NCBI GenBank assembly: GCA_947503155.1 | Contig: CANNCL010000001.1 | Coordinates: 806,001-870,000 of the forward strand | Direction of reading: 5' to 3' | DNA: 64,000 bases | Source of the DNA: an uncultured Erythrobacter sp. | GTDB taxonomy: Bacteria; Pseudomonadota; Alphaproteobacteria; Sphingomonadales; Sphingomonadaceae | In this document: positions 52,773 to 56,569 of the stretch, piece after piece | Position numbering within the stretch: the stretch's first letter is position 1 | Layout: the number at the start of each line of letters is the position of its first letter | The notes under the pieces: model-generated | Database searches by the model: none | What the model saw: the letters and a program-made list of their open reading frames with translations, nothing else | What the model was told of the DNA's origin: nothing | Made by a program: the position numbers and the translations under genes

Positions 52773-53995
52773 GTCGCCCGCTCAAACACCGCCGCTATCC
52801 CCTGTCCGCCGCCGATGCACATTGTCTCCAACCCATAGCGAACATCTCGCCGGTGCATTTCTGCGGCCATATCGGCCAAGATACGCCCGCCCGTCGCGCC
52901 GATGGGATGGCCGAGCGAGATGCCCGAGCCGTTTACGTTGAGAATATCGCGGCGGCTGTCATCACCGCTCCAACCCCAGCCTTTCAGCACGGCCAGCACT
53001 TGCGGGGCGAATGCCTCGTTCAGTTCGACCATGCCGATATCGTCCCACGAATATCCGCGCCGTTCAAACAAGCGCTCTACCGCTGGCACAGGGCCGATAC
53101 CCATACGCGAAGGGTCGCAGCCCGCCGCTGCCCAGCCGCCAAACCACAGGCTTGGCTCCAGACCGAGTTCGTCGAGCTTGTCTTCGGCGACAACCAAACA
53201 CGCCGCCGCCGCGTCGTTTTGCTGGCTGGCATTGCCTGCGGTCACAATCGCATCGGGGTCGCGTTTCAAGTCGAGCGCGCGCAATTTCGCAAGGCTATCC
53301 GCCGACGCATCGGCGCGGAAACCTTCGTCGCGAGCAAATGTGATCGGATCACCCCGGCGCTGGGGCACATCAACCGGCACCAATTGCGCGTCAAATTTGC
53401 CCGCATCCCACGCCGCCGCCGCATTCTGGTGGCTGCGCACTGCGAACGCATCGGCATCCTCGCGGCTGATATCGTAATCCTTGGCAAGGTTCTCTGCTGT
53501 CTCGATCATGCCGGTGATCACACCGAAACGCTCAATCGGCTGGCTCATCAACCGTCCGCGTGACAACCGGTCATGCATGGTGATGTCGCCCATCCGCGCG
53601 CCGCCGCGCCCTTGCAAAGTATAATGTTCGACATTGGACATGCTTTCGCACCCGCCCGCGACGACCACATCTGCCATGCCGGTTTCGACCATCATCGCCG
53701 CATTGGCGACCGCCTGAAGCCCTGATCCGCAGCGCCTATCCAGCTGATAACCGGGCACCTCCAACGGCAACCCCGCCGCGAGCCAAGACCAGTGCCCGAT
53801 GGCCGGAGCCTCTGCATTGCCATATCCTTGCGAGAACACGACATCGTCGACGCGTTCTGGGTTGATCCCGCTGCGTTCGACCAGCGCTTTTAGGATGATC
53901 GCGCCAAGCTCGCCCGCGTTCAGGCTGGATAACCCGCCGAGGAATTTGCCTACGGGTGTGCGCAGAGGCGATACGATAGCTGCTCTTCTAGTCAT
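52769..53995 (-). CDS. Acetyl-CoA acetyltransferase-type thiolase
   Basis: 408 aa. The nucleophile is Cys89 in DRRCGSGLQAVAN, followed by GGCESMSN, the NASQQNDAAAA block, NEAFAPQVLAV, GHPIGATGGR and the second cysteine in MCIGGGQGIAAVF. All thiolase motifs are present. It probably releases acetyl-CoA (or propionyl-CoA) at the end of the pathway encoded by this operon. The ATG overlaps the stop of the CoA-transferase gene by one base. Confidence 0.95.
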   Translation of the reverse strand: MTRRAAIVSPLRTPVGKFLGGLSSLNAGELGAIILKALVERSGINPERVDDVVFSQGYGNAEAPAIGHWSWLAAGLPLEVPGYQLDRRCGSGLQAVANAAMMVETGMADVVVAGGCESMSNVEHYTLQGRGGARMGDITMHDRLSRGRLMSQPIERFGVITGMIETAENLAKDYDISREDADAFAVRSHQNAAAAWDAGKFDAQLVPVDVPQRRGDPITFARDEGFRADASADSLAKLRALDLKRDPDAIVTAGNASQQNDAAAACLVVAEDKLDELGLEPSLWFGGWAAAGCDPSRMGIGPVPAVERLFERRGYSWDDIGMVELNEAFAPQVLAVLKGWGWSGDDSRRDILNVNGSGISLGHPIGATGGRILADMAAEMHRRDVRYGLETMCIGGGQGIAAVFERAT

Positions 53996-55251
53996 CAGCG
54001 GTCCTTTTCAGTGCGGGCCTTATCAGAAAGGGCGACGGTCCCGGCATCCACCAATTTGCCAATGGCGCCGCTGGAAAGGCCCAGTCGCTCGGCCAGAATT
54101 TCTTCCGAATGCTGACCGAGATAGGGCGCAGGCGCAGGCGCACCGGCATCTTGATCCGGCAAATTCGCGAAAGACCGCGTGGCGGGATATTCAAAGCCCG
54201 ATGGATTGGCGGGTGAGGGACCGAATAACGGATTGTCTGTGACCAGCTCAGGGTCGCTCGCCGCCTCATGCGCGGTGCGGTATTTTTCGAAGGTGCAACC
54301 ATTCGCCGCCATGCGCGCGGATAGCCCCTTGTAATCAAGGCTGCTGGCGACGGATTGGAATATGTCAAACAAAGCATGGCGGTGCTTAAAGCGGGGGTCG
54401 TCGCCATCCGAGAATTTGACACCGACCGCGGCCTCCAACTTGCCAATGGGCGCGGTGACGCCAAACGCCTCGACCAACCCGTTCCATTGTTTCGCCGTGA
54501 GCGCTGCGACCATGAACCGCGTGCCGTCCTTGCTGCGGAAATCGCGTCCGAATGCGCCCCAGATCGCATTGCCAAGGCGCGGACGGTCGCCGCCGCGATA
54601 GAGCATTTCGGCAAACATTCCCGAATTCGCCGCCGTGCCAATCGCAACATCACCCAATGGCACGCGCACTTCGCTGCCCGCCCCCGACGCATCGCGGTGG
54701 CGCAACGCGGCAAGCATCGCAAAGGCGCAATAAGCGCCGGTGATGAAATCCCATGCGGGTAGGACTTGGTTGATCGGCGGGGCGGTATCAATTTCCCATT
54801 CTTCCGGCCCCGTCATCAGCGGATAACCGCTGGCGGCGTTAACGGTGAAATCCATCGCCTGACGCCCATCGTGCCAGCCCATGATGCGCACCGATGTCAT
54901 ATCGGGTGCGCCGTCTGTCTGGGCCGCTTTCATCGCCGCGTGCGACAGAAAGCTCTTTTCGGGCAAGTTGGTGATGCACTGTCCGGTCTTGGCTGCCAAT
55001 TCGACACACAATTCGCGCCCTTCGCCGCTGCGCAAATCCAACGCGACCGATTTCTTGGCGCGGTTGAGGTTTTCCCAAGACAGCGAGCGCCCCTCTTTGG
55101 TCAGCATATAGCGGTCATAATCCAGCCCGCCTGTCTTATGATCGACACGGATGACTTCGGCGCCCATTTGCGCGCAATAGAGGCCCGCTGTCGGGGATGC
55201 GACAAAGCTGGAGACCTCTATGATCGAGAGGTCGTTGAGAAGATTATACAT
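53995..55251 (-). CDS. CaiB/BaiF family CoA-transferase
   Basis: 418 aa from the ATG behind AAGGAACC; the frame is open 10 codons further up. It is a class III CoA-transferase (formyl-CoA transferase fold). Family features are the N-terminal IIEVSSFVASPTAGLYCAQM with GAEVIRVD, NLNRAKKSVALDL, and a later active-site region; the usual catalytic Asp is expected near residue 170 (NQVLPAWDFITGAYCAF). It activates or transfers CoA to the acid degraded by the neighbouring enzymes. The donor and acceptor are unknown. Confidence 0.9.
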   Translation of the reverse strand: MYNLLNDLSIIEVSSFVASPTAGLYCAQMGAEVIRVDHKTGGLDYDRYMLTKEGRSLSWENLNRAKKSVALDLRSGEGRELCVELAAKTGQCITNLPEKSFLSHAAMKAAQTDGAPDMTSVRIMGWHDGRQAMDFTVNAASGYPLMTGPEEWEIDTAPPINQVLPAWDFITGAYCAFAMLAALRHRDASGAGSEVRVPLGDVAIGTAANSGMFAEMLYRGGDRPRLGNAIWGAFGRDFRSKDGTRFMVAALTAKQWNGLVEAFGVTAPIGKLEAAVGVKFSDGDDPRFKHRHALFDIFQSVASSLDYKGLSARMAANGCTFEKYRTAHEAASDPELVTDNPLFGPSPANPSGFEYPATRSFANLPDQDAGAPAPAPYLGQHSEEILAERLGLSSGAIGKLVDAGTVALSDKARTEKDR

Positions 55252-55302
55252 AAGGTTCCTTGTTGCGTGCGGGCCGGACAACCGTCTGGCCCTTGTGCCA
55301 AG

Positions 55303-55370
55303 CCGCCCTCTCCCCCTCCCTTCTGCCCTCTAGGATAGAATTCCGGGTGGAAGGGAGGGGGAGAGGGCGG
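55303..55370. repeat. 20-bp perfect inverted repeat with 28-base spacer
   Basis: The arms at 55303-55322 and 55351-55370 are exactly complementary over 20 bases, C/T-rich on one side and G/A-rich on the other (CCGCCCTCTCC... / ...GGAGAGGGCGG). It lies between the acyl-CoA dehydrogenase and CoA-transferase genes of one operon, 51 bases before the latter start. No T run follows in the reading direction of the operon, so it looks like a mobile palindromic element or an RNA-stability hairpin. Confidence 0.8.
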
Positions 55371-55384
55371 TTTAACACCCTAGA

Positions 55385-56569
55385 CTAAGACGCATTCTCC
55401 CATTCGCGCAGCATGTGTTTGGCGATCTGGAGCTGTAGGATCTGGGTCGTCCCTTCGTAAATTCGGTAAATGCGTGCATCGCGGTAGAACCGTTCTGCGT
55501 CATATTCGGCAAGGTAACCCGCGCCGCCATATACCTGCACCACGCGGTCCACCACGCGGCCACACATTTCGGAGGCGAAAACTTTGAATGCGGCGGCTTT
55601 GACGAGGATATTCTCGCCCCGGTCGGCGCGTTCTGTCACGTCTTTCATCATCGCCTCGGCGGCGTAAATTTCGATCTCGCTATCGGCTAGCATCGCCTGA
55701 ATTAGCTGAAAATTGGCAATCGGTTCGCCAAACGCTTTGCGCTCATTGGCGTATTGGATCGCGGAATTCAGCGCCCGCCGGGCGTATCCGGTTGCCGCCG
55801 CGCCGACAGAAATGCGGCCATTATCGAGGCTCTGCATCGCAAAACGGAAACCCTTGCCGGTTTCCCCGCCCAGCAAAGCGTCGCCCGGCACTTTCACATT
55901 GTCGAGCATAATGTCGGAGATATGCGAGCCGGATTGCCCCATTTTTTTGTCCGGCGATCCGGTCGACATGCCCGGAGTGTCCATCGGCACCAGAAACGCG
56001 CTGACATGCGCATTTTTGGGCAAGGCGTCCTTTTCCGTGCGCGCCATGATCAGAGCGACATCGGCGTGAGGCGCATTGGTGATGTAGCGTTTTGTCCCGT
56101 TGAGAACCCAGCCATTGCCATCGGGGTCGGGCGTGGCGGTGGTTGCCATTGCGGCGCTGTCGCTGCCTGAACCGGGTTCGGTCAGGCCGAAACACGCGAT
56201 TTTTCCTTCGGCCAACTTGGGATACCATTCGGCGCGCTGTGCCTCTGTCGCGCCGTTTTTGAGCGCACTGGCAAACATCCCGACATTGATTGAGAAGATC
56301 GAACGATATGCCGGCGCGGCGTTGCTCATCATGTTCACGACGCGCGCATATTGCGTCATATTCAATCCTGCGCCGCCATATTCCTCCGGCACCGACAATC
56401 CGAACAGACCCATATCGCGCATTTCATCAATGATGACTGGCGGAATGGCGTCGTTCTCGATCATTTCGCTTTCTGCTGGGATCAGGCGCTCTTTGACATA
56501 GCGTTCCAATTGCTCGGCGAATTGTTCGAATGTCTCGGCATCCATGCCTTGGCCGGTCCCGGTACTCAT
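55385..56569 (-). CDS. Acyl-CoA dehydrogenase
   Basis: 394 aa. It oxidises an acyl-CoA to the 2-enoyl-CoA with FAD and passes electrons to ETF. FAD- and substrate-binding blocks are CFGLTEPGSGSDSAAM, NGTKRYITNAPHADVAL, and VQVYGGAGYLAEYDAER. The catalytic glutamate is in RIYEGTTQI near the C-terminus. The order acyl-CoA dehydrogenase, CoA-transferase, thiolase and hydratase suits a short beta-oxidation-like route. Its start overlaps the stop of a small lipoprotein gene by 4 bases. Confidence 0.95.
   Translation of the reverse strand: MSTGTGQGMDAETFEQFAEQLERYVKERLIPAESEMIENDAIPPVIIDEMRDMGLFGLSVPEEYGGAGLNMTQYARVVNMMSNAAPAYRSIFSINVGMFASALKNGATEAQRAEWYPKLAEGKIACFGLTEPGSGSDSAAMATTATPDPDGNGWVLNGTKRYITNAPHADVALIMARTEKDALPKNAHVSAFLVPMDTPGMSTGSPDKKMGQSGSHISDIMLDNVKVPGDALLGGETGKGFRFAMQSLDNGRISVGAAATGYARRALNSAIQYANERKAFGEPIANFQLIQAMLADSEIEIYAAEAMMKDVTERADRGENILVKAAAFKVFASEMCGRVVDRVVQVYGGAGYLAEYDAERFYRDARIYRIYEGTTQILQLQIAKHMLREWENAS

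Follow-up and report, generated by a model that had tools for sequence, protein, structure and literature searches.

Short palindromic repeats of several kinds have been described in bacteria, and those closest to the sequence analysed here are REP sequences and REPINs, MITEs, the Rickettsia palindromic elements (RPE) and the Correia elements of Neisseria. In the part of PMC12306157 available to us, REP sequences are defined as palindromic, repeated, extragenic and short (14-40 nt in E. coli), with a common consensus. The same part of that source reports REP candidate counts by RepRanger for Erythrobacter cryptus, the tool's default limit on loop length being 11 nt. REPINs are associated with a RAYT and have conserved outer ends around a variable spacer; the excerpt seen of PMC3116915 describes hairpin-forming inverted repeats with compensatory changes between the arms, extragenic and present in several to many copies. 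MITEs are short, non-coding, palindromic, dispersed and mostly intergenic, are distributed patchily between close species, and have terminal repeats with a body. According to the accessible part of PMC10969869, RPE are alphaproteobacterial palindromes that also occur in frame inside protein genes, and mRNA bearing Correia elements is documented to be cut by RNase III. Our literature search, which reached few subscription papers, found no description of the repeat family reported below.

The window analysed here is a 64,000-nucleotide stretch from an uncultured Erythrobacter sp. It contains an exact inverted repeat at 55303-55370. The original prediction had placed a perfect repeat with 20-bp arms and a 28-base spacer there; the perfect repeat is present, and its arms measured slightly longer, at 21 bp (55303-55323, C/T-rich on the plus strand, and 55350-55370, G/A-rich on the plus strand), which leaves a spacer of 26 bases. 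When mismatches were allowed, the arms extended to 55295-55328 and 55345-55378 (34 nt each, 85% complementary). The whole palindromic repeat, as matched by a covariance model built from 28 copies, covers 55293-55380 (93.1 bits on the plus strand and 64.7 on the minus strand) and is the sole match of the model in the window, with no second site of the family. The central part (55324-55349, plus strand) contains further inner pairs and the loop motif of the family, AGGATA..ATTCCGGG, which according to the family alignment reads on the plus strand, opposite to the operon. Sixty first-order Markov simulations of the window, with spacers up to 60, gave a longest exact inverted repeat of 11.1 bp on average and of 13 bp at most, and the analytic expectation for exact inverted repeats of at least 20 bp is 4e-6 per window. 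A chance origin of the 21-bp repeat is ruled out by these simulations, in agreement with the earlier statement that it is far beyond chance.

The repeat lies within the 133-bp spacer (55252-55384) between two minus-strand genes, which bears out its assignment to the inside of a CoA operon. The upstream gene encodes an acyl-CoA dehydrogenase (55385-56569; PF00441, PF02770 and PF02771) and the downstream gene a family III CoA-transferase (53995-55251; CoA_transf_3, PF02515), the latter with an ATG start inside a longer ORF that begins at a TTG at 55281. The operon-strand RNA (minus strand, 103 nt) folds at -67.1 kcal/mol with a z-score of -7.3, and none of 200 shuffles folded as well. The palindrome is adjoined by a second, small hairpin on the minus strand (55271-55292), which has 9-base arms with one mismatch and a 4-base loop, and by the tail CGCACGCAACAAGGA (55257-55271, minus strand), the assignment of which to the repeat is uncertain. 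Copies in a genome of another genus, G016, also have a small hairpin and then a tail like CGCACGCAACAAAGA, with which the tail in the window agrees in 14 of 15 letters. AAGGA is found within the tail CGCACGCAACAAGGA, upstream of the transferase ATG. Because two relatives without the repeat (G206 and G183) have AAGGAA at the same place, we do not claim the repeat as the donor of the transferase ribosome-binding site, and the AAGGA may equally be native rather than derived from the repeat tail. An Rfam search of the window stretch gave 25 matches, all below the gathering cut-off, of which 24 were microRNA models on the hairpin, on either strand, and the remaining one was a snoRNA model that matched outside the hairpin; four other copies (L141, L143, L148 and L010) gave no match. 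A known Rfam RNA family is ruled out, since the matches are sub-threshold and mainly to microRNA models, as is typical of plain hairpins.

Membership in a dispersed palindromic repeat family had been proposed, together with a search of the genome and its relatives, and this search found further copies in both. In the 3.14-Mb genome of origin, the covariance model gave 16 matches corresponding to eight sites, each matched on both strands, which rules out a unique feature or artefact. BLAST with the 102-bp spacer core located five separate sites in this genome at E below 1e-9. The 15-base arm alone had few near copies in the genome, and neither a first pattern with a short loop nor a contig search with the exact window core gave any match. 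Gene contexts were taken from a simple codon-model gene caller: four sites lie between co-directional genes (the window copy, C1:485719, C1:122221 and C2:365810, the last of these between rpsL and rpsG), two between convergent genes (C3:255433 and C3:24870), one was called divergent (C4:88362), and one is located inside a transporter ORF (C1:61202).

The family extends well beyond this genome. Of 61 congeneric genomes, 40 gave a BLAST match to a 68-base consensus (E <= 0.01), and the covariance model matched 51 of 119 Sphingomonadaceae genomes (43 of 96 genera); these counts, like those for the rpsL-rpsG, symporter and dehydrogenase-transferase loci below, use a consensus or model made from the repeat family itself. 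The exact window palindrome occurred in none of 148 other genomes of the Sphingomonadaceae. All nine loci examined in other genera (L141-L149) were long C-rich/G-rich hairpins. G016 contains at least 19 copies, among them L158, whose arms pair exactly over 33 bp, and a Novosphingobium resinovorum plasmid matches 43% of a G016-type copy at 83.9% identity. The context was determined for 61 copies, many of which are orthologues and thus not independent, after one of 63 regex matches had been dropped as spurious and one of the remaining 62 (L106) had been left out for its short stretch. Between co-directional genes lie 41 of them, 7 between convergent and 9 between divergent genes, and 4 inside one ORF; the divergent and in-ORF copies do not fit a purely 3'-UTR role. 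These searches show that the family is real and dispersed in Erythrobacter and in other Sphingomonadaceae. The consensus, BLAST and alignment results speak against a set of unrelated hairpins with no common core.

The copies are about 68-90 bp long and are generally built of a stem with some 28 or more pairs and a loop of 16-25 bases; a smaller hairpin and a CGCAC-type tail often come next, and a second type with a longer loop also exists. The conserved part is the inner stem beside the loop, and the outer arms and the loop are variable. Across 28 pairs in 28 aligned copies, 93.1% of cells are paired, 54 cells are changed on both sides (shuffled mean 20.9), and the covariation score is 0.214, compared with at most 0.043 when one arm was slid. 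This shows that the arms vary between copies yet remain complementary, the stem being kept by covariation. As a separate observation, the small hairpins beside many copies have arms that are copy-specific but complementary and a GGAT-like loop (GGAT, GGAG or GGAC in at least 22 of 62 copies). A scan of the window for perfect arms of at least 6 bases around GGAT, GGAC or GGAG found no such small hairpin, and the small hairpin of the window copy has the loop GGTT.

The mismatches in the stem bear on whether the repeat is maintained as RNA. Copies oriented with the genes contain 33 G.U and 12 A.C pairs, and those oriented against them contain 3 and 23, respectively; since the ratio reverses with copy orientation, the wobbles follow the element, not transcription. 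With one fixed position left out, 21 G.U and 14 A.C remain in the 28 copies, with 10 and 11 in the inner stem. We do not claim family-wide selection for folding of one RNA strand, because the bias nearly vanishes without this single position. In the window copy, the transcript strand has A.C mismatches where the opposite strand has G.U, so that the copy is not optimised as operon RNA. The lost strand bias and the A.C mismatches of the window copy argue against a general rule of RNA selection for the family.

Two sites at which the repeat recurs were compared in detail. The model matched 20 of the 30 rpsL-rpsG spacers examined (L215-L244; the best-scoring 30 of 48 genomes with a match), some of which have two repeats. 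Eight orthologous copies at this site contain compensatory changes at 4 pairs and 6 cells (shuffled means 1.3 and 1.8). Over their inner 23 pairs, all 22 minority letters lie in the 5' arm, the 3' arm being invariant, and there are 20 G.U, 6 other mismatches and no A.C. From this distribution of letters, either RNA pairing or the 3' arm itself looks to be under selection at the rpsL-rpsG site. Other rpsL-rpsG spacers hold two repeats, and in some of these the first repeat seems by eye to be changed in the other arm, which speaks against the simple RNA-selection reading.

The second recurrent site is the transporter gene, an Na_sulph_symp (PF00939) ORF in which the repeat lies in frame in 6 of 30 loci (C1:61202 in the genome of origin and five congeners; L185-L190). 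These 30 are the best-scoring of 56 genomes with a match, and the loop was readable in 28 of them and unread in 2. The in-frame copies always occupy the same loop and contain no stop codon, and they are of several types and in both orientations. The loop comprises 59-65 residues with the repeat, and 19-36 residues without it in 19 of the 28 readable loci. By eye, the loops of G121, G176 and G149 contain a degenerate copy or another repeat. It was also observed that the loop at L192 (G176) and L193 (G149) holds, in place of the palindrome, a different short repeat with a PSSSEAVGQQ-like peptide, in tandem in G176.

At the dehydrogenase-transferase spacer itself, the repeat is rare. A close transferase orthologue is present in 56 of 61 congeneric genomes, and most congeners retain both genes as a pair; the repeat family occupies the spacer in only four of these 56 loci (the window, G191, G198 and G156). 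Where the transferase is most similar, at 91% in two genomes, the spacers measure 39 and 50 bp and lack the repeat. Forty-seven of the 56 spacers were read and nine were unread: 24 are at most 69 bp long, some with overlapping genes, one is 74 bp, and 22 are at least 93 bp. All 22 of the latter fold at -43 kcal/mol or lower, values taken with no shuffle control. Most of the spacers of at least 93 bp were observed to hold other palindromic repeat families, and other species have almost no spacer (L050-L079 and L100-L125). These other palindromes were not matched by the covariance model and provide its negative control. Away from this operon, a copy present in G198 is missing from G201, with flanks 97.9% and about 80% identical. 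Occupancy at the same locus is thus patchy among relatives, and absence from the operon in most of them speaks against a control site that is both old and particular to this operon.

The repeat family turns over like a MITE- or REP-type repeat. No clean target-site duplication was seen in two comparisons of occupied and empty sites, the flanks of which have diverged, and no transposase (searched for as the Y1 family) or excision product was found for the family. The Y1/RAYT transposase (PF01797) was not found in the genome of origin, where control searches were positive, and was absent from 10 of 11 copy-bearing genomes, including the genome of origin and G016; only G027 had a match. A RAYT-driven REPIN is therefore unsupported.

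Set beside the described systems, the family is like MITEs in being short, palindromic, dispersed, non-coding, largely intergenic and patchily distributed between close species, but differs from them in the lack of a partner transposase in the Y1 search and of a target-site duplication in the two comparisons, and in that nearly the whole unit is palindrome. It has the palindromic, repeated and consensus-sharing nature of REP sequences as defined in the available part of PMC12306157, and 57 of 61 copies lie between genes, with 4 of 61 inside one ORF. We do not file it as a classical REP because, at about 68-90 bp, it is too long and some copies lie in an ORF. RepRanger would probably miss it, given the default loop limit stated in that part of the source. 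It resembles REPINs in its hairpin, compensatory arm changes, mainly extragenic location and copy number; however, a RAYT was found in only one of 11 copy-bearing genomes and its conserved part is the inner stem, not the outer ends, so it was not filed as a REPIN either. The in-frame symporter copies recall RPE, whereas in-frame occurrence here concerns a single gene family, in both orientations, with the rest of the copies mainly intergenic; RPE measure about 150 bp against about 90 bp here, and the likeness drawn is one of description. With Correia elements the family shares, by analogy only, a palindrome within transcripts that is a candidate RNase III substrate.

The window repeat is a copy of a dispersed, non-autonomous palindrome and is not an intrinsic terminator. 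We consider it probable that it acts at the RNA level, where it would most likely separate the fate of the dehydrogenase message from that of the transferase. The copy would have reached this spacer through the spread of the family itself. Within the operon transcript, a very stable RNA hairpin is predicted to fold just after the dehydrogenase stop codon; its stem would be a candidate substrate for RNase III, a block to 3'-5' decay, or both, and the cut or the decay barrier may uncouple the two parts of the mRNA. The suggestion of an RNA-processing site, through which the levels of the two enzymes would come to differ, agrees with this anatomy as a candidate.

The main rival holds the palindrome to be selfish or neutral, simply tolerated where it lies and of no measurable consequence for the operon; this is less probable but still a serious contender. 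It accounts for the occupancy of only 4 of 56 orthologous loci, for the 24 of 47 readable spacers that are at most 69 bp long, some with the genes overlapping, and for the copies in frame inside the transporter gene. However, a very stable stem in a transcript is expected to affect the action of ribonucleases, and the 22 of 47 spacers of at least 93 bp, with other palindromes and folds all at or below -43 kcal/mol, look as though this position favoured hairpins. A regulatory or processing element dedicated to this operon, under selection for the dehydrogenase-to-transferase ratio, would agree with the strong fold and with the placement right after the dehydrogenase stop codon in a conserved gene pair; we regard it as very unlikely because 52 of 56 congeneric loci have the spacer without the repeat, and seven unrelated sites in the same genome also stand against it. 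A transcription terminator ending part of the dehydrogenase transcripts, to which a strong GC-rich hairpin between two genes might point, can practically be dismissed, since an intrinsic terminator is a hairpin followed by a T run, and this hairpin has no T run in the operon direction, as had been noted before; the region 55000-55700 holds no terminator-like site at all (0.8 in shuffles).

Beyond RNA-level uncoupling by the window copy, a wider reading can be put forward speculatively, and we hold it to be rather doubtful. The mobile hairpin might serve throughout the Sphingomonadaceae as an interchangeable RNA cassette, with some copies, such as those at rpsL-rpsG, selected as RNA and others coding, and with neither a RAYT nor a visible target duplication. 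Equally speculatively, this reading would include palindrome families replacing one another in the dehydrogenase-transferase and rpsL-rpsG spacers, and repeat copies that have come to encode part of a membrane transporter loop. If true, the Sphingomonadaceae would have a mobile palindrome family of their own that spreads without the transposase driving REPINs, and its palindromes would remodel operon spacers and at times enter a protein in frame. Several species differ in whether one and the same spacer holds a copy, and with these natural alleles the old question of whether such repeats control operon mRNA or are only tolerated becomes directly testable.
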